DNA of 36,125 bases, from positions 1 through 36,125 of the forward strand of contig NZ_JASNJE010000039.1 of NCBI RefSeq assembly GCF_030164465.1, read 5' to 3'. This DNA comes from Sedimentitalea xiamensis (GTDB lineage Bacteria; Pseudomonadota; Alphaproteobacteria; Rhodobacterales; Rhodobacteraceae). Below are positions 389-21,782 of this stretch, in pieces. Under the pieces are notes generated by a model, which was not told the origin of the DNA, made no database searches, and saw nothing but the letters and a program-made list of their open reading frames with translations. Within the stretch, counting starts at the first letter, position 1; each line of letters starts with the position of its first letter. Position numbers and translations under genes: made by a program.

Positions 389-904
389 TTATGCTCCTTT
401 GGTTTGGGGCTGTGCCCAGCCTTGCTGCTGGCTGATCAAATCGCGGGCGACATTCAGGGCTTTGGCGAGTGCCTGGCTGCCTCCGACATCGGGATGGGCG
501 ATGACGATGGCCGTTCGGTAAGCGATCGAGAGGTCTGCCTTGGTGAAACCTTCGAGTGGCAGGCCCAGCAGCTTGCAGGCTGACTCCCATCCATCGATTT
601 GCGGCACACTTCGCTCTTCGCGTACGCGCTCCCGCGCATCGCTCTGCCATTGCGGTTGCGTTTCCCATGGCGTCAGACCGCGTGCGGCGTGGCCTGTGAT
701 CTCGCGTAAGGTCAGCGCTGCGAAGATGAAAGCCGCGCAAATCATATTCAGGGCAAAGCCGAATATCGTGAGCGCGAGCTGCGGGAGCACGTACCAGGCG
801 AACATCAATCCGCCGATGACGGCGCCCGCAAATATGAGGCCGATGATATAGACGGCGATCACCCCGGCGATCAGAATGATGAAGAGGCCAACGATGATCT
901 CCAT
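389..904 (-). CDS. Membrane-anchored J-domain protein
   Basis: 171 residues. Residues 2-66 are almost entirely hydrophobic, enough for two membrane segments. The C-terminal part (about 105-160) reads as a short J-domain: helix, the diagnostic HPD motif at about 137-139 followed by VGG, then a second helix (ALAKALNVARDLI). J-domains stimulate the ATPase of Hsp70 (DnaK). The start codon overlaps the coupling-protein stop by one base (TAATG), so the two are translationally coupled. I infer a helper for assembly or recycling of the coupling protein at the inner membrane, with the J-domain in the cytoplasm. The J-domain call is good; its role in transfer is a guess. Confidence 0.65.
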   Translation of the reverse strand: MEIIVGLFIILIAGVIAVYIIGLIFAGAVIGGLMFAWYVLPQLALTIFGFALNMICAAFIFAALTLREITGHAARGLTPWETQPQWQSDARERVREERSVPQIDGWESACKLLGLPLEGFTKADLSIAYRTAIVIAHPDVGGSQALAKALNVARDLISQQQGWAQPQTKGA

Positions 905-2520
905 TACAAATACCCCGCGTATTGTGCGATGGCTGCCGCGATGGCGGACAGATAGGCGGTGGTGGCGACCGGGTGCGGAGTCAGAAGGAAGACGAGCGCG
1001 TAGTACAGGCTGCCCTTGAGTTCCTTGGCTCCGCGACCGAATACAAACGGGCTCTTGCGTGTCTGATACGGATTGCGATGAAACGTCCCGCGCAGTTCCG
1101 GCCGTTCCCAATAGGGCGTCTTCTTCAGCACCGCAGGGCGGTTCTTGCCCATGAAGACAAGCTGCTCCTTGCTAGCCGCGTAGAGGATTTCATCGATATC
1201 CATCAGAGAGCGGCGCGCTTCGGATTCAGACAGCTTTCCCTCATGGTTCAGACTTTGGGTTTTGACCGTCAGCTGGCCGAGCAGCTTGGTGACGTGCTCT
1301 GCGGTCTGCAGATCACCCACGCCGATGAACTGCCGCAGGCCGCAATTGGCGAGAAAGGTCTGCCAACCGCGATCATACAGAGCCTCGACCTGACCGAGAT
1401 TCTGGAAGATCGGCCACAGCACGACACGGTACTTGCGCAAGGTGGCAAGCCAGTTCGGGAAGCGTGAAACCTTACCGAGTGCGGCTGCTTCATCGATCAG
1501 GAACAGCACCTTCTCGCGGGCGAGCGGGGTGCGCTGCATCTCCTGGATGGCACAGCCGAGCGCAAGGCGCGGAATTGCAGCGTGGCTTTCATTAAACTCC
1601 AGCGGCAGGACGACGGCGATGATCGCGCCTTTCAGCTTCTTGCCGTCACGCGTGGTGCCCTTGAGGGCAGCAAAATCGATATCGCTGCGCTTCAGGTTTT
1701 CCTGCACGATAGGATCACCAAGCCAGGTAAGGTCTTGCTGGAGCGTGGACATGATGGCCGAGAACTCGGCAGATGCCTGCTCTTCGCGGCGATCCATAGC
1801 ATTGGCGATCTTGCTGACGAGGTCCTTGCCGTCGGCCGTGTCCTGCATTTTCTCCAGCAGGTCATCCCAGGTTCCCTTATCCGCATAGGCCAGATCGAAC
1901 AGAGCACCCAAATGCCTGTCTTCCTTTGCATAGTGGCGCGTCATGAACATGAGCGCTGCCTGCAGGAAGCTTTCGGCCGCATCCTTGAAGAACTTGCTAC
2001 TGCCGCCCTCATTACCGCCGCGCGTGATCAGTTGCTCGGCGATCAGCTTGGCGCTGGCCGCAAATGTTCGCGAGGCGGGGTCAAGGATATCCAGGGGGTT
2101 GAAGCCGTGCATCGGCAGCACCCAAGGCTCTTCACCGTGCATTCCGAAGGGGTTGATGACGCTGACCTCAAAGCCTGCATCCCTCCATGCCTTGATCGCA
2201 ACGGCGGCATTCTCGCCGCCCGGATCATTGATGAAAGCAAAGCGTGTGCGCAGCAGGTTGGGCAGGATGGTGCACGTACCCTTGCCGCTGCCAGACTCCC
2301 CGAAAGTGATGGCGTGGGTGTCCTGATAATAGACAGGCAGAAGACCCGTCCAATCGCCGACCAGAATGCCGCGGTCCTTGAATAGCCCTGCGCGCATCGC
2401 ATCCCAGGGCTTGAGCCAGCGCGCGCTCCCAAAGGTCGTGCGCTCTTTTTCAAATCTCCAGCCGAACAGGCCAAGGCCAAGAATTCCGGCGGCGGTATAG
2501 GCAAGGAAGCTGCCAGCCAT
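904..2520 (-). CDS. Type IV coupling protein, VirD4/TraG family
   Basis: 538 residues. This is the ATPase that delivers the relaxase-DNA complex to the conjugation channel. An N-terminal membrane segment (about 4-22) is followed by a Walker A motif, GESGSGKG, at 74-81 and a Walker B motif, VLFLIDEAAALG, with D343-E344. The region around 370-400 (GQVEALYDRGWQTFLANCG) is typical of TraG/VirD4 proteins. A longer frame reaches 2709, but I chose the ATG at 2520 because AAAGGG lies at the right distance upstream and translation then begins directly with the membrane segment. It heads an operon with the J-domain and H-NS-like genes. No other type IV secretion gene is in the window, so a channel would have to be supplied from elsewhere. 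Confidence 0.9.
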   Translation of the reverse strand: MAGSFLAYTAAGILGLGLFGWRFEKERTTFGSARWLKPWDAMRAGLFKDRGILVGDWTGLLPVYYQDTHAITFGESGSGKGTCTILPNLLRTRFAFINDPGGENAAVAIKAWRDAGFEVSVINPFGMHGEEPWVLPMHGFNPLDILDPASRTFAASAKLIAEQLITRGGNEGGSSKFFKDAAESFLQAALMFMTRHYAKEDRHLGALFDLAYADKGTWDDLLEKMQDTADGKDLVSKIANAMDRREEQASAEFSAIMSTLQQDLTWLGDPIVQENLKRSDIDFAALKGTTRDGKKLKGAIIAVVLPLEFNESHAAIPRLALGCAIQEMQRTPLAREKVLFLIDEAAALGKVSRFPNWLATLRKYRVVLWPIFQNLGQVEALYDRGWQTFLANCGLRQFIGVGDLQTAEHVTKLLGQLTVKTQSLNHEGKLSESEARRSLMDIDEILYAASKEQLVFMGKNRPAVLKKTPYWERPELRGTFHRNPYQTRKSPFVFGRGAKELKGSLYYALVFLLTPHPVATTAYLSAIAAAIAQYAGYL

Positions 2521-2615
2521 TTTGTCTACCCTTTCCATTGACGCGGGCTTTTGTGCTGGCTTCCTATTAAGGGCATGGGCGCGAAGAATGCGCGGACACA
2601 AGTTGGACACGGGTG

Positions 2616-3413
2616 ATGGCCGAGAAGACGCCGATCTATTCTGATTTTCAGTACGAGAAGTTGCGGCTTCGGCTGCTGGCGTTCCAGCGCAAGCACAGCA
2701 AGACGCCACAAGGCATCGCCAACGATATCGTCAATCGCACTGGCTATGCGATGCCCGTTGATGGCGGACGCAAACGCGTGGAGCGCTTTCTGAGCAAAAG
2801 CCACCGTGTCGGTGATGACTTCCTGGCAGCTGTGGAAGCCTTTCTCGGTGACTTCCAACTGATCGACTATGTCGAAGCGGCGGCCGCCATCTCAAAGCTA
2901 TCTCGCGGGCCACACGGAACACTGACCGAAGAGGACATTGCCCGCTTTGCAGGTGTCTATCACGCCAAGCTAACCGCGCTGGTGACTTTTGAAGGGCGTC
3001 CTCCCGAGGACGGGTCAGGCGAGAGGACATGGGACATTGCGACACTGAAAGGCCCCGCCCATCCCGTGTTCAGATTGTCAGCGATGCCCAACCATGCGGG
3101 GCTGTTCGTCTGGGCGGCGCATTCCGTTCGCAAGCCGGAGGACGGGGTGCAGCCGGAAGACCTGCAGGATGTTCCAAGCCGAGGCATTGCCTCGCGGTTC
3201 GGTAAGGACGGCTTGCTGATCATCATACGAGAGCCCTACGCCTCGCTTTGCTACAATGTGAAGCTGCATCCTGAGGAGCCGTCCGTGCTGTATGGCTTCG
3301 GGCAGTATTTCGGGGATGACGAACCGCCGTCCAATGCACCGCGTCCGTTCCTGCCCTTCGATCCGCAATTTGAAATCCGCATGGAGCGGATTTCCGTGAA
3401 GGAAGAAGCATAG
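2616..3413 (+). CDS. Uncharacterised protein
   Basis: 265 residues, divergent from the coupling-protein gene across a gap of about 95 bases. I do not recognise a family. The N-terminal third (about 10-75) is basic and helical (KLRLRLLAFQRKHSKTP, GGRKRVERFLSK) and could bind nucleic acid. The C-terminal part is mixed with several Trp/Phe-containing strands (LFVWAAHSVR, LLIIIREPYASL). No signal peptide or membrane segment is visible. GTG at 2613 and ATG at 2616 are adjacent possible starts; ATG was preferred. Base composition matches the neighbouring plasmid-type genes, so it is probably long resident. Confidence 0.7.
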   Translation: MAEKTPIYSDFQYEKLRLRLLAFQRKHSKTPQGIANDIVNRTGYAMPVDGGRKRVERFLSKSHRVGDDFLAAVEAFLGDFQLIDYVEAAAAISKLSRGPHGTLTEEDIARFAGVYHAKLTALVTFEGRPPEDGSGERTWDIATLKGPAHPVFRLSAMPNHAGLFVWAAHSVRKPEDGVQPEDLQDVPSRGIASRFGKDGLLIIIREPYASLCYNVKLHPEEPSVLYGFGQYFGDDEPPSNAPRPFLPFDPQFEIRMERISVKEEA

Positions 3414-6574: not shown

Positions 6575-6621
6575 GGATCGGCGCGGGGTCCGTGCTGGTG
6601 CACGTCCATCCGCGCCGATCC
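6575..6621. repeat. Perfect 12-bp inverted repeat, possible oriT element
   Basis: GGATCGGCGCGG at 6575-6586 pairs perfectly with CCGCGCCGATCC at 6610-6621 across a 23-base loop. It sits after a terminator and about 600 bases upstream of mobC and the relaxase, where an origin of transfer is expected. No T tract follows, so it is not a terminator. I cannot identify a nic site. The surrounding 6549-6810 has no supported gene; it also holds a 10-bp palindrome TGTCCGGACA (6678-6687) and an AT-richer stretch (about 6650-6790). Confidence 0.45.
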
Positions 6622-6817
6622 GTTTGAGACCGCGAAGCAAGCTCACGATGACACCGAAAAAGAGCGTGTCCAACTCTTGTCCGGACATAAAATTCAGGGT
6701 AAAAACGAATGTAAATCAACGGGATCGCTTGCTGAGCGCGGGATGCGGAGCGAGCGTTAAGAATTCCCTAATCTTGATCCGTTATCATTAGCTGAATAGG
6801 TCGTTTTCAGAGCGATA

Positions 6818-7181
6818 CAAGATGTGCGCGGTGCCACCGCGCCATCTTGGGAAGGGGGCTAAGAGCTGCCCCCGTTCCATCCCCCGCTCGTGTGGCGAGA
6901 CGTAGAGAGACGAGTCGTCCCCCATGTCACACCACAGCAGCATTTCGTTGCTGCACCACGACCGAAGAGCCTTCGTGCCCTTTGGAAACCTGAGCAGGAG
7001 ACTTCGCTCTCCTGCACCATCGACCGGAACTTGGGAGAAATGCCTCTCCCATCCGGACTGAACCCATGCACCAGGGGATTTCGCACCCTGGACGGCGACC
7101 AAAAGGGAGACTTCGGCTCTCCTCTTGGAACTCCATCGACCAACATTTCGGTGTTGGATCACGAGCAGGAAACGGTCCTGC
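6818..7181 (+). ncRNA. Run of nine hairpins upstream of mobC (candidate structured RNA or ssDNA element)
   Basis: Stems in order: a near-perfect 32-base palindrome (6818-6849, CAAGATG and GCGCGGTG arms); GGGGGC/GCCCCC (6854-6873); GCAGCA/TGCTGC (6937-6954); CACGA/TCGTG (6957-6977); GCAGGAGA/TCTCCTGC (6994-7015); GGGAGA/TCTCCC (7033-7050) inside an outer CCGG/CCGG pair; CCAGGG/CCCTGG (7071-7091); CCAA..GGGAGA/TCTCCT..TTGG (7099-7128); CCAACA/TGTTGG (7140-7157); GCAGGA/TCCTGC (7165-7181). The first counts as an entry hairpin to the nine that follow. Loops are 5-9 bases in most, and five contain TTCG. The stem sequences mostly differ while the shape repeats. No convincing gene lies here. It may be the leader of mobC, an independent RNA, or a folded single-strand element used during transfer. 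Confidence 0.5.
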
Positions 7182-7218
7182 ACCCGGTGGCCTACGAGAG
7201 GTGAAACGGGAATACGCT

Positions 7219-7572
7219 ATGGCTGGCAGCGGCAGTGAAAAAAGACAGCGCCAGAGCATCATCAAGGCGCGCGTTACGGAGCAGCAATTCGAGCTCTTTA
7301 AGGCGCAAGCCGAGGCTGCCGGTCTGTCTATGTCCGCCTTGATCCTTTACGCTCTCCTCGACCAAGCGCCGCTTCGCGCCTCCCGCACGCCGCCTCTGGA
7401 TCGCGAAACAGCCGCCCGCATCCTTGCTGTTCTTGGGCCGATTGCGTGCTCGATGCGGCAAGCCTCGGACTCCGGCGATCTCGAAAAACTGGCCGAGACG
7501 ATCATCGCCGCGCAGCGTGACATTGCTGAAATGCGCACTCTGATCATGTCTGCCTTCGGGAGGACGCCATGA
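7219..7572 (+). CDS. mobC: MobC-like mobilisation accessory protein
   Basis: 117 residues. The N-terminal half matches the plasmid mobilisation MobC/ribbon-helix-helix layout: basic start (SEKRQRQSIIKARVT), then EQQFELFKAQAEAAGLSMSALI, a strand-helix-helix that binds DNA as a dimer. Such proteins bind oriT and help the relaxase open the nick site. The stop overlaps the relaxase start by four bases, the usual arrangement. The ATG at 7219 was chosen; GTG at 7201 is an alternative that adds six residues. It lies directly downstream of the hairpin array. Confidence 0.78.
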   Translation: MAGSGSEKRQRQSIIKARVTEQQFELFKAQAEAAGLSMSALILYALLDQAPLRASRTPPLDRETAARILAVLGPIACSMRQASDSGDLEKLAETIIAAQRDIAEMRTLIMSAFGRTP

Positions 7573-9221
7573 TCCTCAAAGGTAGCTGCCGGACGAACGG
7601 CTCCGATCTCGCGACCCATCTCATGAACGGCTACGACAACGAGCGCGCCGAGCTGGGCGAAGTGCGCGGCACCATTGCCGACGATCTGCACGGCGCGTTC
7701 GCCGAGATCGAGCTCATCGCATCGGGGACACGTGCACAAAAGCCGCTCTTCTCCCTGTCCATAAACCCCCATGAAGCGCTCACGCGCGAGCAGTATTTCG
7801 AGGCGATTGACGCCATCGAAAATAAGCTGGGGTTTGCAGGACAGCCGCGTGCCGTTGTCTTCCACGAGAAGGAAGGCCGCGAGCATTGCCATGTCGTCTG
7901 GTCGCGCATCGATCCAGAGTCGATGAAGGCGATCCCGGACTCGTTCTACAAGGCACGGCTCTGCGACATGGCAGTCGTTCTTGCCGAGAAATTCGGGCAT
8001 GAATTGCCCGAAGGGCTCAAGCAGTGGCGGGACAAGAACCGTGAGCTTGGTGACAAGCTTGAGCCCAGCCTTGCCGAAACCGTCAACGCCAAGAAGACAG
8101 GCATTACGCCCGAGCAGCGGCGCGAAGAGATCACGTCATGCTACGCACAGGCTGATAGTGCCGCGGCCTTTGTGAACGCGCTCGAAGAGAAGGGCTATGT
8201 GCTCGCCAAAGGCGACAGCCGCGCCTTTGTCGTGGTGGATCGCTTCGGTGATGTCCACAGTCTTTCGCGCTACGTGAAGGGCGTCCGCGCGAAGGAAATC
8301 AACGCGCGACTGTCGGCGCTTGACGCCAATGGGCTGCCATCCGTTGACCAGGCCAAAGACCTCGCGAAAGCCCGCCTTGCTGCACAGGAAGAGCGTCTGC
8401 GTGAACAGCAGGACGTGCAGCATGATCATCAGCACGATGATCGTTCCCATGATCGGCGTGACCAGTATGACCAGCAGGATCACCATGGTGATCAGCATGA
8501 CGATCATGATCGTCATCAGCGCAGCATCGATGAAAAGCGCGCAGCAATGGAGCAAGCGCAGCACGCCCGCCGCCTTGAGTTTGTGCAGGCCGAGCAGGAG
8601 TTGTTGACCCGCCATCAGGACGAAAAACTCTCCCTTGATGCTGCACAAATCGCTGAGAGCGGCGGCCTGCTATTCCGCATGAGAGCGCGGGTGGCAGAAC
8701 TGATCGATACCCGTCCGGCGCTGCGCTCGGTGCTTGGTCACATCACCGAGAAAGTCGGGCTTGATCCGCGTGATCGGCATCGCATGGAACAGGAAGCTCT
8801 TGCCCGCCGTCATGGCCGTGAGCGCCTGGCGCTGGCAGGCAAGAAGCGTTCGATGGAAAAGATCGAACAGCGCGAGAATGCTTCGCTTGAGCGCGATCTC
8901 AAGCGCGAGGCGCTGCAAAGAATGCTGCGCCAAGAGCAGCTTCGTGCTGCAGAAAAAGCGCAAGGACTGGAGGTGCGGGAATCATCCGCCGAAGCCGAAT
9001 TCCTGCGCACCGATCCGCGCCTTCTCGAAGAGGGTGCCTTCGGTCGTGAGTTCAATGAAGAAGCTTCTGCTTCTGCCGAAGATACCCAAGGTGAAGAAGG
9101 CGAAGGTGAAGATAACGGCGGGCGGAAGTCGCGCCGCAGCTGGAAGCAGCGCGGTCAGGACAAAGGCCACAAACACGGTCGCGGGCGTGGCAAAGGCTAC
9201 GGCTATCGGCGCGGGGAGTAG
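7569..9221 (+). CDS. Relaxase / mobilisation nuclease
   Basis: 550 residues. The N-terminal domain (1-160) is a relaxase of the VirD2/MobA-like superfamily: a histidine cluster, H99 and EHCHVVWSR with H106 and H108, forms the metal site. A catalytic tyrosine would be near the N-terminus (Y22 is the first candidate), though an unusual nucleophile is possible. The middle (about 275-325) is a His/Asp/Gln-rich linker with repeated HDD, HDR and DHH units. Next come long charged helices (about 325-470), then an acidic patch and an Arg/Gly/Lys-rich tail. It nicks oriT and pilots the strand through the coupling protein. The His-rich segment is unusual and could bind metal. Confidence 0.85.
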   Translation: MILKGSCRTNGSDLATHLMNGYDNERAELGEVRGTIADDLHGAFAEIELIASGTRAQKPLFSLSINPHEALTREQYFEAIDAIENKLGFAGQPRAVVFHEKEGREHCHVVWSRIDPESMKAIPDSFYKARLCDMAVVLAEKFGHELPEGLKQWRDKNRELGDKLEPSLAETVNAKKTGITPEQRREEITSCYAQADSAAAFVNALEEKGYVLAKGDSRAFVVVDRFGDVHSLSRYVKGVRAKEINARLSALDANGLPSVDQAKDLAKARLAAQEERLREQQDVQHDHQHDDRSHDRRDQYDQQDHHGDQHDDHDRHQRSIDEKRAAMEQAQHARRLEFVQAEQELLTRHQDEKLSLDAAQIAESGGLLFRMRARVAELIDTRPALRSVLGHITEKVGLDPRDRHRMEQEALARRHGRERLALAGKKRSMEKIEQRENASLERDLKREALQRMLRQEQLRAAEKAQGLEVRESSAEAEFLRTDPRLLEEGAFGREFNEEASASAEDTQGEEGEGEDNGGRKSRRSWKQRGQDKGHKHGRGRGKGYGYRRGE

Positions 9222-9224
9222 GCG

Positions 9225-9650
9225 CTATTTTCCGGAGAACCAACTGCGCACGGTATGCCAGAGACCGGATGCAGGCGCCACTTCCGCCTCGGGCGCTGCG
9301 GCTTCGGGAGGATTGAAGTATCGCCCCTTTGCGCGCCGATCACTGTCACGGCCTGCGGAGATTGCCTCGTTGCTCATGTCGCCCGCCCATCTGATGTCAT
9401 TGTGCTTGATCCAGTAATGCGAGCGGCAGGGAAAGCTCCAGTTCCCTATGGACGGAGCGAGCGATATCGAGACTCCATCATAACTCATCTTCCAGTCCGT
9501 TGGGCTCAAGGGCGTGACCACTTCCCGACCGCAGCCGCACGCGCATTTATGGATGGCGGTAGCATAATCCATGGCAAGGTAGAGGACGCCGTCTTCGAGG
9601 TTCTCGGGTATTGCTTCCACAAAACGGTGGGTAATCTTCTTAATCGTCAT
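9225..9650 (-). CDS. DUF6527 family protein (ubiquitin-like operon)
   Basis: 141 residues. The protein begins MTIKKITHRFVEAIPENLEDGVLYLA and carries a metal-binding-looking CACGCG motif (about 38-43), a tryptophan-rich stretch and a second cluster, SFPCRSHYWI, as in the DUF6527 family found next to ubiquitin-like and ThiF genes. The tail (WHTVRSWFSGK) is typical too. Its function is unknown; a zinc-binding partner in conjugation or deconjugation is an inference. The ATG at 9650 overlaps the end of the E1 gene by 11 bases, and a TTG at 9653 is an alternative start. It is convergent with the relaxase gene, three bases away. Confidence 0.78.
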   Translation of the reverse strand: MTIKKITHRFVEAIPENLEDGVLYLAMDYATAIHKCACGCGREVVTPLSPTDWKMSYDGVSISLAPSIGNWSFPCRSHYWIKHNDIRWAGDMSNEAISAGRDSDRRAKGRYFNPPEAAAPEAEVAPASGLWHTVRSWFSGK

Positions 9651-10824
9651 CAAACTTGTCCATGTTGCTTATCGTGTTGCCGTCTATCGTATAGTTGCTC
9701 GAATGCTCTCCTTCGTAATCAGCGTAGAAGGTCAGCAGCTTTTTCCACCTTACAACCGCGAACGCTGCATTCAGGGCGTTCAGGTCTGCCACCTGAATGT
9801 TGGTGGCGTAAGCATCATCAATCTGCGCATCGCCCATGCCAACCCGGCGGCGCAGGGGCTCCCTCTGTTCGGTTGTGCTGGTTGTCACACGTAGCACCCC
9901 AACCAGGCTGTCGTCGCCCATCTGTATGCCCATCCCGACATCAATGAAGGGGATGCCCCGAGCTTCAAGTCGTTCGACGACAGGCCGCTTTGCGGCGCCG
10001 GAATCCACGCACAAGAATACGAAATCCATGTCGTCGAGGAGATGCGCATTCGTATCTTCAAGGTAGACGGGGTGCGCCACCATGCCTTTGCGCATGGGTG
10101 CATATTGTGCTGCGAAGTATTCCACCTTCTTGAGACGCTCGCGGAGCGTTTCGAGGCTCGGTGCGCCGGGGCTACGAAATGCGTTGTGCTGCAGAAAGTC
10201 GTCGCCGTCGATCAGGTGCAACTCGCGGATCGGTGTCTTTGCAATCAGATCGAGCACATATGAACCTGTTCCACCCAGGCCGACGATTGCGACCTTATTC
10301 ATAGCCAGCTTTTCCGAAAGTCCGCCGATGCCCGCCCTAGCTGACGCCGTGTCGGTGTAGTTGAAGACCGGGTCGGGTTCATCCGAGTTTGCCACGACAA
10401 AAGTGCGTGCGTCTGCAGCGGGGTCAATCGCGCGTGCGTGCGAGGCGATCATCTCTACGTACGTCGTCATCTTGTGCTGATAGTCTTGGTAGCCTTCCTT
10501 CGGCTTGGCCGAGAACATATGGTCAACGGCTATGCCGCCGCCGAGTGTCTGGCGCTTACTGGAGTGTTTGATGTGAGCGAGTGCCCGACCATCCTTGTCG
10601 CAGGGATGATCGCCTTCGAAATAGACTTTGTGGTCGGTGGGCCTGATCGTTTCATTGCCGTTCATCTGTAGAACGGAAACGAGATGACCCAGCTTCACTT
10701 CGCGCTGTGCGTTCACGTAAGGCACATTGGAAATGACGAGGTGGCCGGCAATGACGGCCACCTCGTACCCTTCGTTTTCGAGCGCCTTCAGGTCGGCGTT
10801 ATGACTTATCAGTTGCCGTGACAT
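9640..10824 (-). CDS. E1-like ThiF adenylyltransferase with N-terminal E2-like region
   Basis: 394 residues. The C-terminal domain (about 175-394) is a ThiF/E1 Rossmann fold: GLGGTGS at 182-188 binds ATP, LIDGDDFLQHNAFRSPG (about 204-220) supplies the acidic and arginine contacts, and FLCVDSGAAKRPVVERL follows. The N-terminal region (1-150) has H65, C75 and a HPCD segment at 73-76 that recalls the E2-like or DUF6791 domain fused to such E1 proteins. The enzyme would adenylate the ubiquitin-like protein encoded just upstream. Only two cysteines are present, C75 and C272, so a thioester carrier would have to be one of these. Its start lies inside the preceding gene (26-base overlap), showing strong coupling. 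Confidence 0.8.
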   Translation of the reverse strand: MSRQLISHNADLKALENEGYEVAVIAGHLVISNVPYVNAQREVKLGHLVSVLQMNGNETIRPTDHKVYFEGDHPCDKDGRALAHIKHSSKRQTLGGGIAVDHMFSAKPKEGYQDYQHKMTTYVEMIASHARAIDPAADARTFVVANSDEPDPVFNYTDTASARAGIGGLSEKLAMNKVAIVGLGGTGSYVLDLIAKTPIRELHLIDGDDFLQHNAFRSPGAPSLETLRERLKKVEYFAAQYAPMRKGMVAHPVYLEDTNAHLLDDMDFVFLCVDSGAAKRPVVERLEARGIPFIDVGMGIQMGDDSLVGVLRVTTSTTEQREPLRRRVGMGDAQIDDAYATNIQVADLNALNAAFAVVRWKKLLTFYADYEGEHSSNYTIDGNTISNMDKFDDD

Positions 10825-11065
10825 TGAAGATCATGCCTTCTTTCAGCTTCACGGTTTCACCTTCGTCCAGCGTGCCTTCGGGCTTGTTGCCCTGACCGCG
10901 CCGGAACGTGATCGTGAAGCAGATGAATTCGCCCGTGGGCGGGTTATCGAAGGCGAGGGCAACCAGATCGCCCTCACCCATTTCTTTGGCCGTGACCGTC
11001 TTTTCGCGGCCGTTCACGATGATCGTGATCTCTTTTTCGGTCTTGTCGATGGTGTCCTTCGCCAT
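10799..11065 (-). CDS. Ubiquitin-like protein, multiubiquitin family (single domain)
   Basis: 88 residues, one beta-grasp domain: strand (EITIIVNGREKTVTAKEM), helix region (EGDLVALAF), then FICFTITFRRG, GTLDEGETVKLKEGMIFNVTATDKS. This is the multiubiquitin family fold found next to E1-like genes. Family members are often two or more fused domains; here there is only one. The C-terminus ends ATDKS without a diglycine, so conjugation would need an unusual tail or the protein may act without conjugation. A good ribosome site (GAAAGGAAAG) precedes the ATG. It is the second gene of the DUF2188-Ubl-E1-DUF6527 operon. Confidence 0.78.
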   Translation of the reverse strand: MAKDTIDKTEKEITIIVNGREKTVTAKEMGEGDLVALAFDNPPTGEFICFTITFRRGQGNKPEGTLDEGETVKLKEGMIFNVTATDKS

Positions 11066-11082
11066 GGCCTTTCCTTTCTGTT

Positions 11083-11316
11083 TCAGCCTTTGGGCGGGAA
11101 CGGGTCGCCGCCGTGGCTATCACTGCTGGCAATCCGTCCGTCGCGGTTGTGGATACGCAGTTCGCTTTGCTGGTTGCGGCTGATTTCCCGGCCGCGGTCG
11201 ATGGCGTTCTGCTTCGTGTCGTGGTGGCTGCTGGCGCGAGATGCGCCGCCGCGCTTCACATCCCAGCCGCCGCCCGGATTCGGTACGACGTGGTGGGTCT
11301 TCGGTCCCTTACTCAT
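11083..11316 (-). CDS. DUF2188 family protein
   Basis: 77 residues starting MSKGPKTHHVVPNPGGGWDVKRGGA. The strand-turn-helix order THHVVP..GGWDVK, then SSHHDTKQNAIDRGREISRNQQSELRIHNRDGRI, matches the small DUF2188 family. The ribosome site AGGAGG at about 11325-11331 fixes this start over the longer frame from 11352. It is the first gene of the ubiquitin-like operon, reading away from the XRE repressor. DUF2188 proteins have no established biochemical role that I can state. Confidence 0.8.
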   Translation of the reverse strand: MSKGPKTHHVVPNPGGGWDVKRGGASRASSHHDTKQNAIDRGREISRNQQSELRIHNRDGRIASSDSHGGDPFPPKG

Positions 11317-11354
11317 GGTTTTCAACCTCCTGTTCGTTAGGGGTGCAGGCAAAA

Positions 11355-11432
11355 AAAGTATGCCTACTCCGAACAGGATATAATGGTTGAAAGTCGGAAG
11401 TCAAGCACGTAAAGTATGTCTATTCCGAACAG
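11355..11432. promoter_or_regulatory. Divergent promoter with two 22-base operator-like repeats
   Basis: Direct repeats at 11355-11376 and 11411-11432 are 22 bases long with only two differences (both C/T), starting 56 bases apart; their core is CCGAACAG preceded by AAAGTATG. Between them is TATAAT (11379-11384) on the plus strand. On the minus strand TTGACT (11404-11399) and TATATC (11382-11377) are 16 bases apart. The site lies between the ubiquitin-like operon and the XRE/ImmA genes, so the XRE protein probably binds both repeats and controls both directions. Confidence 0.72.
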
Positions 11433-11457
11433 CGAAAACGAAGGGAGGCGCTGCCGC

Positions 11458-11778
11458 ATGACAAACAGCCTTGGAGAGAAGATTCGAAGTCTTAGAAAGG
11501 ATCAAAAGCTCACTCTCGATAAACTCGCAGAGAATTCCGGCTCCAGCAAAAGCTACATATGGGAACTGGAAAACAAGAACCCGCCGCGTCCGTCGGCAGA
11601 AAAACTTGCCAAGATCGCCGAAGCCTTGGGTGTTACCATGGAGTACCTGCTGGATGAAAAGCAGGCGATCACCGAAGAAGACGCCGTTGATGCGCAGTTT
11701 TATCGTGAGTATCGGCACATGGACGCCGACACGAAGGAAAAGATCCGAGAAATGGTGAAGCTGTGGGGTAAGTCCTGA
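11458..11778 (+). CDS. XRE-family repressor
   Basis: 106 residues. A helix-turn-helix of the Cro/CI type occupies residues 1-65: LGEKIRSLRKDQKLTLDKLAENSG, then SSKSYIWELENKN as recognition region and LAKIAEALGVTMEYLL. The C-terminal 35 residues form a linker-helix (QFYREYRHMDADTKEKIREMVKLW). The ATG at 11458 was selected for the GGGAGG ribosome site 9 bases upstream; an in-frame ATG at 11416 overlaps the operator repeat. The stop overlaps the ImmA start by one base. In such pairs the metalloprotease removes the repressor after a signal, releasing the controlled operon. Confidence 0.85.
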   Translation: MTNSLGEKIRSLRKDQKLTLDKLAENSGSSKSYIWELENKNPPRPSAEKLAKIAEALGVTMEYLLDEKQAITEEDAVDAQFYREYRHMDADTKEKIREMVKLWGKS

Positions 11779-12689
11779 TGACTACACGGAAGTCGCCGCA
11801 GCGCTGGGCAAACGATTTGACCATTATTTTGAATGCCCGAGGCGGCGACGACCGTTTTCCGGTCAATGTCGAGCAGCTTGCATATGACTACTCACGCCAG
11901 CGCTTTCCTGACGATCCAGTCAGCCTGGTTAAGGGCGCGTCACTGAAAGGCTTTGAGGGTGCTTTGATGAAAGCGCCTCCAGGCGAAAAGGGTTGGGGCA
12001 TATTCTACAACTCGGACACGGCCTCAGCGGGGCGCATCAACTTCACGCTTGCCCACGAGTTCGGGCACTACCTCCTACATAGGCAAGAACATCCTGACGG
12101 CATCCAATGCAGCACTGACGATATGGAGCGATGGGACAGCGAATATCGCAAGATTGAAAAAGAGGCCAACGAGTTCGCTGCCAACTTGCTGATGCCTCTG
12201 GACGACTTCCGCAGGCAAATTGACCCTAGGCGCAAGCCCGATCTGGAGGCCCTTGGAGAATGTGCCGACAGATATGGCGTTTCTCTGATTGCTGCGATTC
12301 TGCGCTGGTTGCAGTACACGGGGCGCCGCGCCGTTCTGGTGAAATCCATCGACGGGTTCATACATTGGGCGTGGTCGAGTGATTCTGCATGGCGGTCAGG
12401 ACTTTACTTCAAGACATCCGGCCGTCCGCCCCTTGAGATTCCATCAAGCTCTGTCCCTGCCACAGGCGAGGGACTCGTAAGGCAGAAGGCGACGGTAGAA
12501 CACGATGCGCGCGTTTGGTTTAAGGAGCCTTGTATTGAGCACGCACTCGTATCTGAAGTTCATGATTTCGCTCTATCACTTCTATTGTTCGGTGATGCGC
12601 CGTCGCGCTTCGAGCTCGCAGAAGAAATCGAGGAAGATAGCTACGACCGTATGCTTAGCCGCACGCCTGGCTCCTCTTGGCTAGGCTAG
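11778..12689 (+). CDS. ImmA/IrrE-family metallopeptidase
   Basis: 303 residues. The zinc-peptidase signature HEFGHYLLH begins at H93 (HEFGH, 93-97), with a following segment KEANEFAANLLMPLDDFRRQ that supplies the downstream acidic ligand typical of this family (DUF955). The C-terminal half is longer than in minimal ImmA proteins and may sense the inducing signal. Coupled by one base to the XRE gene, it is expected to cleave that repressor and so switch on the ubiquitin-like operon opposite. Function is inferred from the family and gene order. Confidence 0.87.
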   Translation: MTTRKSPQRWANDLTIILNARGGDDRFPVNVEQLAYDYSRQRFPDDPVSLVKGASLKGFEGALMKAPPGEKGWGIFYNSDTASAGRINFTLAHEFGHYLLHRQEHPDGIQCSTDDMERWDSEYRKIEKEANEFAANLLMPLDDFRRQIDPRRKPDLEALGECADRYGVSLIAAILRWLQYTGRRAVLVKSIDGFIHWAWSSDSAWRSGLYFKTSGRPPLEIPSSSVPATGEGLVRQKATVEHDARVWFKEPCIEHALVSEVHDFALSLLLFGDAPSRFELAEEIEEDSYDRMLSRTPGSSWLG

Positions 12690-12716
12690 CCCAAACCTGG
12701 GCAAGATCAGCTACTA

Positions 12717-12797
12717 TAGATCACTCTGGCAGTATGATATAATAAAGTAGATCACCTCTTGAAGGTTAGAGTGGAGTGTGATATATTTAAGTATATC
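12717..12797. promoter_or_regulatory. HipBA promoter/operator region
   Basis: Within the 139 bases before hipB: two copies of TAGATCAC (12717-12724 and 12748-12755, 31 bases apart), a TATAAT at 12738-12743, and the palindrome GATATA-N6-TATATC at 12780-12797. HipB-type repressors autoregulate from palindromes in this position. The palindrome is the best operator candidate. Confidence 0.5.
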
Positions 12798-12828
12798 AAG
12801 TTGTTTCCTTGATATGTTTGGATAGATC

Positions 12829-13422
12829 ATGACGAGCTATGAAAGTGAAAAACTGGCGGCAACACTCAAGGCCGCACGCGAGAAGAAGGGGCTTAGTCAG
12901 CGCGCACTAAGCTCTCGTGCAGGCGTGCCGCAGTCGCACATCTCAAAAATCGAGAGCGGAGCGGTCAACCTGACCGTCTCAAGTCTTACGGCTATCGCCA
13001 ATGCCCTTGATCTGGAGCTTGCTCTAGTGCCACGCAAGGCAGCACCTGCTGTTCGGACGATCACGCGTAGCGTTAATGATGTGCCGAAGGCAACTCCCGA
13101 GACGCGCAAAGAGATAGCTAGGCTCGCAAAGCAGGTCGATCACCTGCGGTCACTCGAAATCGACACGCCAGCCGTCGAGACTTTGCAACGTCACTTTCGA
13201 GAGCTTCGTCAGTTCGAAAACCTAATCCGGAATACCGACGCACTGCGCAGCATACGAGAGACGCTCAAAGCTGTAGATGATGCAGGCGGGGTCTCCGCGC
13301 TGCGCGAAGCAACAAATCAGATGAGCAGTTTCAGAAACGCGCTCGCTCATGGCTTGACCGAAGAGAACCGCACGCGCTTACCGCGTCCGGCCTACCGGCT
13401 TGATGGGGGCGATGATGAGTAA
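12829..13422 (+). CDS. hipB: HipB-like antitoxin with C-terminal extension
   Basis: 197 residues. Residues 1-72 are an XRE helix-turn-helix (LKAAREKKGLSQRALSSRAGVPQSHISKIESGAVNLTVSSLTAIANALDLELALV split over helices) of the HipB type. HipB proteins are usually about 90 residues; this one continues with a helical extension of about 110 residues. That extension ends in SFRNALAHGLTE, where R169 and H174 match the R-x4-H pattern of HEPN domains. The stop overlaps hipA by 8 bases. It is expected to bind its own promoter and neutralise HipA; whether the HEPN-like end has any activity is open. Confidence 0.75.
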   Translation: MTSYESEKLAATLKAAREKKGLSQRALSSRAGVPQSHISKIESGAVNLTVSSLTAIANALDLELALVPRKAAPAVRTITRSVNDVPKATPETRKEIARLAKQVDHLRSLEIDTPAVETLQRHFRELRQFENLIRNTDALRSIRETLKAVDDAGGVSALREATNQMSSFRNALAHGLTEENRTRLPRPAYRLDGGDDE

Positions 13423-14647
13423 CGTCTCCGTCCTGAACGTGAATCTATATGGCGAGCCCATAGGCACTCTGACCAATGTCGGCGGTGACCGGACGCTTTT
13501 TGCCTTTACCGACGCATATATCGAGAACGCCAAGAGGCCGACCCTCGGGCTCTCTTTTAAGGATGAGTTCGGTACACTTCAGACCGAGTTTCGTCCATAC
13601 CAGAAGCGGGTGATGCCATTCTTCTCGAACCTTCTCCCCGAAGGCCATCTCCGAAAGTACCTGGCTGAACAAGCGGGTGTGAACCATGAGCGGGAATTCT
13701 ATCTGCTCTGGGCGCTGGGACGTGATCTGCCTGGCGCGATCACAATCACGCCCGCCGATGACGAGCCGTGGCCGCCGGAAGTGGCCGATGGCGCCGATGA
13801 TAATCGTGACGATCATCGCGAAAACGCTTTGCGGTTTTCCCTGGCGGGTGTTCAACTCAAATTTTCTGCCGTGATGGAAGCAAGTGGCGGGTTAACCATC
13901 CCCGCCTCTGGCGTTGGCGGCTCTTGGATCGTGAAGCTGCCTTCGCGTGAATTCGCAGGAGTGCCTGAGAACGAATTCTCAATGATGAGACTGGCAAGCC
14001 TTGTCGGCATGAACGTACCTGCCATTGATCTGATAGGTATCGATGCGATCAAGAACCTGCCCGAAGGGATCGATAAGATCGGCAAGAATGCCTTTGTCAT
14101 TGAGCGCTTTGATCGTCTGTCCGATGGATCGCGCGTGCACATCGAGGATTTTGCACAGGTCTACGGGCTGTATCCCGATGAAAAATACGGCAACGGCAGC
14201 TTTCGGAATATCGCGCAGGTGATTGCCGCTGAAGGAAATGATGCCGACATTATTGAATATGTCAGACGCCTGACCTTCAATATGCTGATCGGTAATGCCG
14301 ATATGCACATGAAGAACTGGTCGTTGATCTATCCTGACAGGCGGTATGTCTCGCTGGCCCCTGCCTATGATTTTGTGGCGACTGTGCCCTATCTTCCGGG
14401 CGATGCAACGAACATGAAGATCAGCCGCGCTAAGGTCTTCTCGGCATTTTCAACCGACGAGCTAACCCATCTGGCGGTGAAAGCCGCGATCCCGAAGAAG
14501 ATGGCGTTGGATGCTGCCAAAGAGACCGTTCAAAGTTTTCAGGAGCATTGGGCGAAGGAAGCATCGCACCTGCCGATGTCTGACGACGTGAGGTCAGCTG
14601 TAGCAGCCCACATGAAGACCGTGCCCATTCTCGATGAGCTGTCTTGA
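13415..14647 (+). CDS. hipA: HipA-family serine/threonine kinase toxin
   Basis: 410 residues. The HipA N-terminal subdomain (VLNVNLYGEPIGTL) is followed by the kinase core: FSLAGVQLKFSA (phosphate-binding region), SWIVKLPS with the ATP-binding lysine, ENEFSMMRLASLVGMNVP, FVIERFDR, then the catalytic NMLIGNADMHMKNWSLIY and the metal-binding LAPAYDFVAT. HipA kinases inactivate aminoacyl-tRNA synthetases by phosphorylation and cause dormancy. The ATG at 13415 was chosen with GGGGGC upstream; ATG at 13412 and 13403 and a TTG at 13400 are alternatives. It is coupled to the antitoxin gene. All key motifs appear intact. Confidence 0.88.
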   Translation: MSNVSVLNVNLYGEPIGTLTNVGGDRTLFAFTDAYIENAKRPTLGLSFKDEFGTLQTEFRPYQKRVMPFFSNLLPEGHLRKYLAEQAGVNHEREFYLLWALGRDLPGAITITPADDEPWPPEVADGADDNRDDHRENALRFSLAGVQLKFSAVMEASGGLTIPASGVGGSWIVKLPSREFAGVPENEFSMMRLASLVGMNVPAIDLIGIDAIKNLPEGIDKIGKNAFVIERFDRLSDGSRVHIEDFAQVYGLYPDEKYGNGSFRNIAQVIAAEGNDADIIEYVRRLTFNMLIGNADMHMKNWSLIYPDRRYVSLAPAYDFVATVPYLPGDATNMKISRAKVFSAFSTDELTHLAVKAAIPKKMALDAAKETVQSFQEHWAKEASHLPMSDDVRSAVAAHMKTVPILDELS

Positions 14648-15244: not shown

Positions 15245-16435
15245 TTAACCAGTCCGCAATAGACCAATATCTATTAGATCAACTACAGCCTGCTCGATAA
15301 GTCTCGCCGCTTCTTGAATGTCAGTGATGGTTGTGCCTTTGCCTAAACTAAACCTTACGCACGAGGCAGCGCGTTCGCCATCGAGCCCTATTGCACGAAG
15401 TACGTGCGAGGGCTCAGGAATACCGCTGGTACAGGCTGACCCAGATGAAGCAGCGAGGGAAGGCTGCAGACTAGCGAGAAGGTCGGCTGCGGAGATACCC
15501 TGAAGACCGATGTTGAGGTTGCCCGGGTGTTTGCGCTTTGTATCCAAAGGTCCGTTGACCCAAACGCCACAGGGAAGTGTGTTCAGCTGTTCGAGGAATT
15601 TGTTGTTAAGCTCTGCAAGTTCGCTGCGCACACGGCTTCCTTCTTCAGATGAAGATATTCTCGCCGCTGCACCAAAACCGACACAGAGCGCCGTTGGAAG
15701 CGTGCCGGAACGGAGGCCATTCTGCTGACCTCCGCCAATAATGATTGGCTGTATTCTATGGTGGAGCTCGCGACGAGCGAAAAGAGCGCCGATTCCTGCG
15801 GGACCGTACATCTTATGGCTTGAAAGGCTGATCAAATCAGCATGAACAGCAAGCTGTGACACATCCATTGCGCAAGGGGCTTGCGCTGCATCGCAGTGGA
15901 GAAGAGAGCCTGCAGCTGCGGCTAATTTAGAAATTTCTTCGATATCTTGAATTGTACCAATTTCATTATTGGCCGCCATTACTGATACTAGAAAAACTTC
16001 ATCAGAAATTGCACCCGCAAGAGCATCGAGATCAACGTGGCCGTGAGCATCAACCGGAATAACTTCAACGTCAAATTCTAGATCTGATGACAACCTACGC
16101 CCAATCTCAAGGACGCATTTGTGCTCGATGGCACTTAGAAGGATACGCCGTCGATTTTTTGGCGCCTTTCCATGAGCAAGGCCGAGAAGGGCAAGATTGT
16201 TTGCCTCTGTTGCGCCTGAGGTGAAGACTATCTCGTCAGGGTCGCAACCAATGAGAGAAGAAATATCTGATGCGGCTTGCTCGACCGCCTGAGAGGCTCG
16301 CCAACCAATGGCGTGTTCAGTAGAATGCGGATTCCCAAAGCCTCCTTCGAGATATGGCAGCATCTCTTTCAAGACCCTCGAATCAAGCGGAGTGGTCGCT
16401 TGATGATCCAAGTAGATTGTTTCTTGAATTTTCAT
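15245..16435 (-). CDS. sspA: Cysteine desulfurase of the phosphorothioation system
   Basis: 396 residues, a PLP-dependent class V enzyme that removes sulfur from L-cysteine and holds it as a persulfide. Seen: YLDHQATTPLD at the start, ATEANNLAL, IEHKC, AANNEIGTIQ, HCDAAQAPCA, SLSSHKMYGP with the PLP lysine, GGGQQNGLRSGT, and SSGSACTSG with the catalytic cysteine. The ATG at 16435 was chosen because homology starts there; the frame extends to 16462 without support. It diverges from the sspB operon, the arrangement known for Ssp loci, where SspA provides sulfur to SspD. It could equally be called DndA/IscS-like; context decides for Ssp. Confidence 0.85.
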   Translation of the reverse strand: MKIQETIYLDHQATTPLDSRVLKEMLPYLEGGFGNPHSTEHAIGWRASQAVEQAASDISSLIGCDPDEIVFTSGATEANNLALLGLAHGKAPKNRRRILLSAIEHKCVLEIGRRLSSDLEFDVEVIPVDAHGHVDLDALAGAISDEVFLVSVMAANNEIGTIQDIEEISKLAAAAGSLLHCDAAQAPCAMDVSQLAVHADLISLSSHKMYGPAGIGALFARRELHHRIQPIIIGGGQQNGLRSGTLPTALCVGFGAAARISSSEEGSRVRSELAELNNKFLEQLNTLPCGVWVNGPLDTKRKHPGNLNIGLQGISAADLLASLQPSLAASSGSACTSGIPEPSHVLRAIGLDGERAASCVRFSLGKGTTITDIQEAARLIEQAVVDLIDIGLLRTG

Positions 16436-16463
16436 AAATATTCCAACAACTTCTATCGACATA

Positions 16464-16548
16464 CCCTTGCAAACCTGCGCTCCGCAAGGGTTGCAGCGTT
16501 TCTGGAGGATATCTCCAGGAACAAGTTTGACCCTACCACATATTGTGG
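16464..16548. promoter_or_regulatory. Divergent sspA/sspB promoter region with three palindromes
   Basis: Within the 153 bases between the two starts: CCCTTGC/GCAAGGG (16464-16470 with 16484-16490), CTGGAG/CTCCAG (16502-16507 with 16513-16518) and CCACA/TGTGG (16536-16540 with 16544-16548). TTGACC (16527-16532) followed 18 bases later by TACTGT is a weak sspB promoter candidate, and the third palindrome lies in its spacer. No dndB-like regulator gene is present in the window. Confidence 0.5.
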
Positions 16549-16588
16549 GTTACTGTCGAGCTGGATCAACCTTCCAGGACGAGACGCT

Positions 16589-17554
16589 ATGCCACGGGGA
16601 CCTATCTACAATGACGACTACAAACCGCAATTTTCGGGCCATGAGACCTTCCCGCTGCGCTACGGGTGGCTGAAAAAGGCGTACGATGCGGTCTACGAGC
16701 GTGAGGATGGTCCGGACGGCAAGCTCGCCTTCACCCGCGATGACTCGATAGCTCGATTCGGTGTGGGGAAGAACATGGTGTCTTCGATGCGCCATTGGGC
16801 GACTGCATCCGGGATCATAGAGGATGGACAAGGACCCAACGCACTCGCTACGACAAACCTCGGCCGACGCCTGTTTGGAAAGAGTGGGCTTGATCGCTAC
16901 GTGGAGAATCCCGCAACTCTTTGGTTGATCCATTGGAATTTGGCAGGGCGCCCCGAGAAAACGACTTGGTATTGGAGCTTTAACAATTTTCCCGGGGTTA
17001 CTTTTGAGCGTGAGCAGCTTGTTCGCGCATTGGAAAAGGTCGCCAAAGATCGCGAGTGGCCACGCGTCTCGTCCACAACAATACGTCGCGACGTCGAATG
17101 TTATCTTCGAACCTACGTGGCTAGGTCGGCTTCTGGCGCTTCATCCCCTGAGGATTCTATGGAGTCGCCTTTGGCAGAGCTGGGTCTGATTAAGGCGATC
17201 GGTCGACGTGACGGTTTCAGATTTGTTCGGGGGCCGAAGTCTTCCCTTGGAAACGGCGTGTTTCTTTACGCTCTGATCGAATTCTGGGCGGGTTATACAA
17301 CGGCACAAACCTTGTCGTTTGAAGCTGTCGCACATGAGCCGGGGTCGCCTGGTCGAGTTTTCCTTCTTGACGAGAACGACGTAGCTGATCGTCTTCTTGC
17401 ACTCGAAGATTTCACAAAAGGCTCGTTTAGGTGGTCAGAAACGGCTGGCCTCAAGCAAGTTATTCGTGATGTTGCGTTGGATATGGATGCTGCGCTTGTC
17501 TACGCGATGTGTGATTTCAAAAAGAAAAATATTGAGGGTAGAGAGGCGGCCTAG
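16589..17554 (+). CDS. sspB: DUF4007 protein, phosphorothioation component
   Basis: 321 residues. The start MPRGPIYNDDYKPQFSGHETFPLRYGWLKKAYDAV split at FSGHETF (15-21) is the hallmark of DUF4007. The frame is open back to 16277 but overlaps sspA, so the ATG at 16589 with AGGACGAG upstream is preferred. In the Ssp system the DUF4007 protein SspB nicks DNA on one strand and works with the ATPase SspC and sulfur-inserting SspD. No obvious nuclease signature can be read by eye. The sspC start follows two bases after its stop. The family call is strong; the nickase role is taken from knowledge of Ssp systems. Confidence 0.82.
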   Translation: MPRGPIYNDDYKPQFSGHETFPLRYGWLKKAYDAVYEREDGPDGKLAFTRDDSIARFGVGKNMVSSMRHWATASGIIEDGQGPNALATTNLGRRLFGKSGLDRYVENPATLWLIHWNLAGRPEKTTWYWSFNNFPGVTFEREQLVRALEKVAKDREWPRVSSTTIRRDVECYLRTYVARSASGASSPEDSMESPLAELGLIKAIGRRDGFRFVRGPKSSLGNGVFLYALIEFWAGYTTAQTLSFEAVAHEPGSPGRVFLLDENDVADRLLALEDFTKGSFRWSETAGLKQVIRDVALDMDAALVYAMCDFKKKNIEGREAA

Positions 17555-17556
17555 CG

Positions 17557-20943: not shown

Positions 20944-21782
20944 TGAGTGAAGTAACAGAGAAACACGTCCTTGGACTTTCGGGCGGCCGAGATAGCGCTG
21001 CGCTGGCAGTTTATATGCGTCAGCACTATCCCGAGTTAGACATCGACTATTTCTTTACGGATACCGGAAAAGAACTTCCCGAGGTATATGAATTTCTAGG
21101 CCGGCTAGAAGGCTTCTTGGGTAAGCCTATCCTCAGACTCAACCCAGATAGGGATTTCGATTTTTGGCTAAAGCAGTACAATAATTTTTTGCCGTCTCCA
21201 CAAACGAGATGGTGTACCCGACAGCTCAAGTTAAGACCTTTCGAGCATTGGCTTCGTCCGATGCTTGAGGAAGGTAAAGTGATCCATAGCTACGTGGCCA
21301 TCCGAGCAGATGAAGAGTATCGTGAGGGCTATAGCTCCAAACATGAAAACTTGAAGGTTGTACTACCCTTCAAACAAGACGGGATCGATAAGCCGGGAGT
21401 ACAGGACATCCTTGAAGCTTCCGGTCTGGGACTGCCCAAGTACTATGACTGGCGGTCTCGGAGTGGGTGTACGTTCTGCTTTTACCAACAAAAAATTGAA
21501 TGGGTGCGTCTGAAGGAGCAACACCCTGAAGCATTTGAGGAAGCTAAGGCCTACGAGAAAGACGCAGTTGCACACGGATCACCTTTCACCTGGTCGCAAG
21601 GCGAGTCGCTGGACGAGTTGACACGTCCTGAGCGAGTGGTTCAGATCAAAGAAGATTATGAGAGGCGTTTGGCGCGATTGAAGGCTAAGAGGCAAGACAA
21701 CCCACTGCGCGAACCGTCGGGAGATGTGGACCTAGACGAGCTTTACGGGCAAGCGAAATCATGTCTCGCCTGTCATAAGTGA
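20943..21782 (+). CDS. sspD: ATP pyrophosphatase / PAPS-reductase-like sulfur-insertion enzyme
   Basis: 279 residues. The PP-loop SGGRDS at 13-18 binds ATP, and DYFFTDTGKELPEVYE follows, as in PAPS reductases and DndC. Cysteines C91 (RWCTRQLK), C176 and C179 (SGCTFCF) and C274 and C277 (SCLACHK) could hold an iron-sulfur cluster as in DndC. The enzyme activates DNA phosphate so that sulfur from SspA can replace oxygen. It is shorter than DndC (about 500 residues), which fits SspD. Start overlaps sspC by one base and the stop overlaps the next gene by four. Confidence 0.85.
   Translation: MSEVTEKHVLGLSGGRDSAALAVYMRQHYPELDIDYFFTDTGKELPEVYEFLGRLEGFLGKPILRLNPDRDFDFWLKQYNNFLPSPQTRWCTRQLKLRPFEHWLRPMLEEGKVIHSYVAIRADEEYREGYSSKHENLKVVLPFKQDGIDKPGVQDILEASGLGLPKYYDWRSRSGCTFCFYQQKIEWVRLKEQHPEAFEEAKAYEKDAVAHGSPFTWSQGESLDELTRPERVVQIKEDYERRLARLKAKRQDNPLREPSGDVDLDELYGQAKSCLACHK

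Follow-up and report, generated by a model that had tools for sequence, protein, structure and literature searches.

What is the long run of hairpins that stands before the mobilization genes on a contig of Sedimentitalea xiamensis? The window analyzed here is a 36,125-nucleotide stretch (NZ_JASNJE010000039.1, positions 1 to 36,125), and the run occupies positions 6818–7181, upstream of mobC, which encodes a NikA-like relaxosome accessory protein, and of the gene for a MOBP-type relaxase. An original prediction, made from the letters alone, offered three guesses: an ornate noncoding RNA, a structured mobC leader, or a part of an origin of transfer (oriT) that folds as single-stranded DNA. The third fits best. 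The first 66 bases (6818–6883, the head) match the plan of the IncI1/R64-type oriT and track the relaxase, and the remainder (about 6891–7181, the array) is a chain of hairpins that may serve the trailing end of the transferred strand.

Every part that the original prediction had described was found in the sequence, including the 32-base palindrome that forms inverted repeat 1 of the head. The region holds eleven stems in total. The nine short-loop stems are present; TTCG, credited to five loops, occurs on the plus strand in six of the eight short-hairpin loops, and the long stem at 6891–6936 had not been singled out. The run is regular from 6994 onward, with hairpin starts 25–47 bases apart instead of the 30–45 first noted. 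The bases ATCCC, ending at 6883, directly follow inverted repeat 2 of the head. This structure lies far from chance: the folding z is −6.0 on the plus strand and −6.9 on the minus strand, and none of 100 shuffles was as stable on either strand. A finder restricted to Watson-Crick pairs returned eight hairpins with a summed score of 69.8, versus a mean of 1.9 hairpins, a maximum of 6 and a maximum score of 47.0 in 300 dinucleotide shuffles of the same bases. When the window was cut into 197 fixed tiles, the two tiles of the region ranked first and second by hairpin score (54.9 and 49.6), and the next-best tiles, located elsewhere, followed close behind (48.9 and 47.8). A protein-coding reading was rejected: the seven close homologues differ by single-base indels, so no reading frame is kept across the region, and their open frames differ.

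The relaxase was used as the query for homologues in genome contigs, plasmids and genomes of the family. It recovered six close loci at 75–82% identity in genome contigs, 18 plasmid records, six of which were taken for study, and matches in 66 of 394 family genomes. A head of 61–69 bases lies upstream of the relaxase gene in all six close loci, and the same head precedes the relaxase in plasmids of Bradyrhizobium, Sphingopyxis, Acidithiobacillus (pTF4.1), Frigidibacter, and Sinorhizobium meliloti; in a Sphingobium baderi plasmid (L049) it was found neither by pattern nor by model. Among 30 relaxase loci with 1.5-kb flanks (L009–L038), a two-strand head pattern gave four heads (L009, L010, L011, and L016). 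R1, a covariance model of the head, had matches in the family (52/394 genomes), the class (23/385), and the phylum (7/299), three of these seven falling outside the class. The genome of the window itself is counted each time, and the filters were strict, such that weak matches may be missed. Head and relaxase occur together in 45 of the 394 family genomes (Fisher p = 2e-35). Relatives of the region were found across Alphaproteobacteria, and the shuffled hairpin set of the array recurs in mobile elements of many alphaproteobacteria and of a few other bacteria. A phage collection gave no match, and a pattern search of viral contigs matched two contigs.

The head shows covariation. We aligned 18 heads (17 distinct sequences), taking the pairing from the window's structure, and found changes on both sides in 12 of 24 pairs (seven of 14 in inverted repeat 1, five of 10 in inverted repeat 2), which none of 500 shuffles matched. 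There were 27 changed cells versus 6.3 in the shuffles, and the covariation score was 0.225 versus 0.097, a value that no shuffle of the 500 reached. The number of further pair types was less clear, being equalled by 25 of 500 shuffles. The original prediction had proposed selection on shape and named two findings that would speak against it, a lack of compensatory changes in homologues and a conserved open frame. Neither was found: compensatory changes appear in both head and array homologues, and the stems change yet stay paired, which supports the proposal. A total of 83 head matches was reduced to 71 by removing seven weak matches and five loci that were duplicates. The sets of 66, 62, 61, 56, and 41 used below are subsets of these 71, chosen by similarity or completeness or, in the case of the 41 alone, by the presence of at least three hairpins.

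Sequence conservation drops steeply at the predicted nick site (nic) of the relaxase, which we place, together with the choice of transferred strand, by homology (Table 1; an arrow marks the nick). CTTG↓Y stands at this place in 71/71 heads, as is partly demanded by the model that found them. CTTG carries 2.0 bits, and the first four bases beyond it carry 1.23, 0.79, 0.17, and 0.06.

The closest known counterpart of the head is the oriT of the IncI1 plasmids R64 and ColIb-P9, served by NikA and NikB. According to an excerpt of PMC3817090, the R64-type oriT lies directly upstream of nikA and contains 17-bp and 8-bp inverted repeats, of which the 17-bp one differs from plasmid to plasmid and belongs to the site bound by NikA. 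R1 was built without ColIb-P9, and an unfiltered search over 24 kb of that plasmid gave its top match at 1636–1714, just upstream of nikA (17.1 bits, E 0.021; the runner-up had E 0.95). On the minus strand upstream of nikA, ColIb-P9 reads GC hairpin, AGATGG, inverted repeat, CACATCCTG, then T; the minus strand of the window reads bulged GC hairpin, AAGATGG, inverted repeat, CACATCTTG, then T, with the parts in the same order. The cut strand thus shares the plan of a bulged GC hairpin, AGATGG, an inverted repeat, and CACATCYTG↓T, and two sets of inverted repeats stand in fixed order beside the nick. In position, too, the window agrees with IncI1, as a nikA-type gene and then the relaxase gene come next downstream, whereas most island heads sit elsewhere, often kilobases away from the relaxase gene. 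Unlike the IncI1 oriT, inverted repeat 1 of the head has different letters and a short apex, and the nick motif has CTTG instead of CCTG; ColIb-P9, for its part, has one GC hairpin and lacks the array in the stretch read. A consensus-type motif adjoining an inverted repeat is likewise found in the MOBP nick regions of RP4 TraI, Ti VirD2, and tfs4 VirD2 (excerpt of PMC3772185), from which the head differs by at least one motif substitution and by a predicted nick at the foot of the palindrome itself. We conclude that the head is probably an additional member of the known IncI1/R64 kind of oriT.

The position of the head relative to the relaxase gene bears on the guess of a structured mobC leader. 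Of 67 head places in the family, 49 share a contig with a relaxase match and 18 do not. Each of the 49 was paired with its nearest relaxase match; five of them are weak heads (G289, G116, G385, G141, and G314; E 9e-4 to 6e-3), and that of G289 overlaps its own relaxase match. Eight of the 49 show the window's arrangement, in which the head shares the strand of the relaxase gene and stands just ahead of it, and 39 lie downstream of that gene on the opposite strand, at a median distance of 15.1 kb and at most 30.3 kb. These two fixed arrangements cover 47/49 heads, and the nearest relaxase gene is therefore on the array side, the side predicted to be transferred late, in all 47. The window and the seven other same-strand cases are what a leader or attenuator of the mobC-relaxase mRNA would require, but because only these eight of the 49 heads have that position, the leader fails as a general account; arrays without an adjoining relaxase (L004 and L008), moreover, end against a convergent gene. 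We regard it as very improbable. Some contigs carry two heads (G315:C532 and G631:C6), and the G631 pair is divergent and 1.5 kb apart.

The array is one-sided. At 56 distinct loci with full flanks, there are 3.5 hairpins per 300 bases on the array side versus 0.8 on the other; the array side is the richer at 44 loci, the poorer at three, and equal at nine. With DNA parameters, unselected array sides have mean folding z values of −3.2 (plus) and −3.1 (minus) over 62 distinct heads, versus −0.8 on both strands of the non-array side, where 9/61 fall below −2 on both strands. In the 41 arrays with at least three hairpins, the means are −3.9 and −4.1, and this set is biased towards structure because it was chosen by hairpin number. 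The loops also have preferred letters. Among 290 hairpins from 66 arrays, 123 have six-base loops, the commonest on the minus strand being GCGAAG (21), GCGATA (16), AGGAAC (11), and GCGAAA (8), and this preference is absent from the hairpins in 167 kb of other island DNA.

The arrays appear to be assembled from modules. At 22% edit distance, 388 hairpins from 71 arrays fell into 228 clusters, 29 of which are present in at least three arrays; some are confined to the seven close homologues and others occur at varying distances from the head. Cassettes recur in different orders and taxa, one module being near-identical in a Sphingopyxis plasmid and Roseovarius, and repeated linkers seem to be the points at which modules come and go. 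Such turnover is what would be expected if cassettes piled up beside oriT by replication slippage or relaxase-mediated recombination with no use of their own, and nick-like copies past the head in 5/20 islands point the same way. This selfish or neutral accumulation is unlikely in our judgment, since diverged arrays still fold and since, among the seven close homologues, 7/172 paired columns vary versus 41/205 unpaired ones, a contrast weakened because the long stem 6891–6936 was counted as unpaired. Gapped columns numbered one among the paired and 15 among the unpaired. In the long stem, homologues have T-A or C-G where the window has T.G on the minus strand, which is a compensated pair; at array hairpin 2, four of the seven close homologues have A.C on the minus strand, the opposite direction.

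A bolder proposal, which we put forward as doubtful, is a cassette-built tail: interchangeable DNA hairpins beside oriT, in mobile elements of alphaproteobacteria, whose loop code (RCGAWR and AGGAAC, minus strand) would be read on single-stranded DNA by a candidate protein, with cassette number and order tuning the strand end or its conversion and cassettes exchanged between unrelated elements. The IncI1/R64-type oriT is already known, and what is new is the head joined to a cassette array. We found no description of such an array in the literature searched, which covered few subscription papers and is therefore weak evidence of novelty.

On balance, we lean towards the reading that 6818–6883 is the oriT of a mobilizable element with a NikA-like MobC and a MOBP relaxase, and that the array folds and most likely acts at the trailing end of the strand being transferred. 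The relaxase would nick the minus strand between 6818 and 6817 and remain on the T end; because the strand cut there would leave leftwards, the relaxase and mobC genes, then the array, and then the head would reach the recipient last. On that strand, 6891–7181 would fold into a chain of small hairpins that may mark and hold the trailing end for the second cut and recircularization, and/or, when the whole strand has arrived, provide sites at which second-strand synthesis can begin. The array is next to the end that must be recognized for the second cut, which is also where single-strand origins are expected. Both inverted repeats of R64 were reportedly tied to termination by Furuya and Komano. 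What the sequences show is the structure and its conservation, the likeness in plan to the IncI1 oriT, the link with the relaxase, and the one-sided placement. We infer the function of the array indirectly, and while action at the trailing end is favoured, termination and second-strand priming are not separable on sequence grounds.

Priming taken by itself would make the array a single-strand origin or initiation site (sso/ssi) beside an oriT head, its hairpins on the incoming strand recruiting host RNA polymerase or primase for the complementary strand. We hold this to be possible, though only tentatively. On the strand presumed to be transferred, the array stands immediately 5′ of the nick and hence would be single-stranded last, and loop letters kept while stems vary are as expected of a loop-reading protein. 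The sso1 of ICEBs1, for which three stem-loops are predicted, is orientation-specific, and it and the pBAA1 origin resemble the array in having several hairpins, in being non-coding, and in an orientation that is expected to matter (excerpt of PMC4595007). The likeness is one of description, however: there are three stem-loops in ICEBs1 versus eight or more here, cassette variation and shared hexaloop letters set the array apart, and its strand preference is nil beyond composition. The array also has a likeness to Frpo-type single-strand promoters, which are folded single-stranded DNA near oriT. Unlike those of IncI1 and IncF leading regions, the array would be on the trailing side, given the predicted nick. 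Frpo-containing sequences are named in IncI1 plasmids and associated with leading-region genes in the excerpt of PMC3817090.

The remaining guess, taken up here as a structured noncoding RNA (or its template) that mobile elements carry and that merely neighbours oriT, is quite unlikely. Both strands fold strongly, the hexaloops are conserved, and of two terminator-like patterns in the region (versus 1.0 in shuffles) one is on the minus strand at array hairpin 6. The original prediction could name no known RNA class that fits, and none of 4227 Rfam families gave a match in the window at or above its gathering score; the weak matches to RtT, the best of them at 25 bits against a gathering score of 45, and to RT-12, at 20.4 bits against 44.2, we judged to be chance. 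In addition, no sigma-70-like promoter was found in 6600–7600, conservation is lost steeply past the nick, where a plus-strand promoter would sit, and in the window the start codon of mobC (7219) comes only 37 bases after the last hairpin.

Several observations weigh against an oriT with a trailing-end array. The sequence does not settle which strand folds. The minus strand is lower in raw energy in 38/41 arrays with DNA and 40/41 with RNA parameters, but against same-composition shuffles the preference vanishes (24/41, p = 0.46; 34/62); the raw bias probably arises because the linkers are 68% A+C on the plus strand. Only 39/62 unselected array sides have z < −2 on both strands, and pTF4.1 (L047) has a short array, while by eye the array is missing in L144 and L146, both outside the class; it is therefore an addition and not a core part. 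A relaxase without a head match occurs in 21/66 relaxase genomes and a head without a relaxase in 7/52 head genomes. Two of the 49 heads break the geometry: the G196 head lies downstream on the same strand, and in G315 the second of the two heads departs from both arrangements, its next-nearest relaxase fragment being one that would suit the opposite-strand downstream arrangement. At the nick, the window's CATCTTG↓T is one substitution from the MOBP consensus (C/T)ATCCTG(C/T), in which the relaxase attaches to the 5′ end (excerpt of PMC3772185); CATCTTG↓Y is found in 45/71 heads and another reading in 26/71; and conservation past the nick is not nil, at 0.37–0.66 bits over bases 11–13 with a weak peak of 0.66 at the twelfth. 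A strand inference from wobble pairs was also tried, and was discarded when 28 A.C versus 1 G.T, favouring the minus strand, became 11 versus 10 with looser settings and clustering of related hairpins.

Table 1. Features of the hairpin region and of the transfer genes in the window.
Feature	Coordinates	Strand	Remarks
Coupling protein (T4CP, TraG/VirD4 type) gene	904..2709	-	PF02534, E 1.4e-47
Predicted nick (nic) of relaxase	6817..6818	-	CATCTTG↓T, between 6818 and 6817; by comparison with ColIb-P9 CATCCTG↓T
Inverted repeat 1 of head	6818..6849	.	32-base palindrome; corresponds to the 17-bp NikA-binding repeat of the IncI1 oriT
Inverted repeat 2 of head	6850..6878	.	Bulged GC hairpin; corresponds to the 8-bp repeat of the IncI1 oriT
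First array unit	6891..6936	.	Long imperfect stem; compensated pair among seven homologues
Array hairpin 1	6937..6954	.	Minus-strand loop ACGAAA
Array hairpin 2	6962..6985	.	Minus-strand loop ACGAAG; near-identical module in Sphingopyxis plasmid
Array hairpin 3	6994..7015	.	Minus-strand loop GCGAAG, the commonest hexaloop
Array hairpin 4	7024..7056	.	Stem in two parts
Array hairpin 5	7071..7091	.	
Array hairpin 6	7099..7128	.	
Array hairpin 7	7140..7157	.	Minus-strand loop CCGAAA
Array hairpin 8	7165..7181	.	Last one ahead of mobC
mobC, NikA-like relaxosome accessory protein	7219..7572	+	PF21983, 34.2 bits versus cut-off 27
MOBP-type relaxase gene (MobA/VirD2-type)	7569..9221	+	PF03432, E 2e-15; NCBIfam TraI_MobP_relax, E 5.9e-10, below its cut-off

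The islands that carry heads appear to be integrative mobilizable elements at tRNA genes. A tRNA gene was found about 6–22 kb past the head in 12/12 right flanks examined, and a serine-recombinase domain in 5/6 scanned open frames adjoining island tRNA genes, such frames being present in 7/11 flanks; a crude motif search for an integrase found nothing. The tRNA gene is the likely integration site because the left end of the island resembles a tRNA 3′ end, and the head seems to be inside the island because tRNA genes with serine-recombinase frames stand beyond it. An element end or IS91-like terminus at the outer CAAG was proposed for the drop in conservation there, and was dropped because tRNA and recombinase genes lie beyond. 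Direct repeats at both element ends were suggested in one case alone, near the head in L091. In the islands L081–L100 (e.g., L082, L088, and L098), the tRNA-3′-end-like left end also supplies the start codon for a short frame that precedes the relaxase (e.g., ATGGTGCGCC...), so the integration site appears to be built into that frame. An excerpt of a 2017 review (PMC5704250) states that no Proteobacteria element then described belonged to the class with its own relaxase but without a type IV secretion system (T4SS).

The nick-like copies beyond the head number nine within 300-base stretches in the 5/20 islands; over all 310,591 bases, the motif has 28 copies, which include those nine and some heads. 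They look as if left by repeated relaxase-mediated events, and would be accounted for because relaxases such as R64 NikB recombine oriTs, NikB being listed among those able to do so in an excerpt of PMC5714925. Past the head, L086, L089, L090, L091, and L093 have one to three copies of CACATCTCG or similar (CATATCTTG in one), about 68–69 bases apart if repeated. Additional GTACTAC-like motifs stand in the leading region near the head in L006, L081, L088, L098, and L100, and share letters with the apex of inverted repeat 1 (GTAGTAC) of many heads.

In the window, the gene for the type IV coupling protein (T4CP) probably belongs to the same element as the head and relaxase. Beside the relaxase, 9225–11352 encodes a ubiquitin-like cassette of ThiF/E1-like (with DUF6791), Multiubiquitin, DUF6527, and DUF2188 proteins. 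Two frames at 11416–14647, one with an IrrE-type peptidase domain and one for a HipA-type kinase, each follow a frame that looks helix-turn-helix by eye. A phosphorothioate-type defence cluster follows at 15245–26720, in which PADLOC assigned SspA/DndA, SspC, SspD, PbeA-like, and PbeC/DndD-like proteins; there was no match for another small frame at 26280–26720. A 1135-amino acid protein with PD-(D/E)XK, RNase H-like, and helicase domains (26816–30223) adjoins a ParB-like protein (30416–32380), and type I restriction genes occupy 33371–35498, where the methylase frame has just 298 amino acids and stops early in the profile, ahead of the specificity subunit.

The head provides a sequence-level handle on the oriT of widespread mobilizable elements of alphaproteobacteria, some of which, the window's included, are loaded with defence genes. 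In some islands, the oriT is far from the relaxase gene and is thus easily overlooked. The array makes the last-entering stretch of the transferred strand, a poorly known step, open to study. Should a host or element protein prove to be recruited by the hairpins, these would constitute a new cis-acting conjugation module that varies by cassette exchange.
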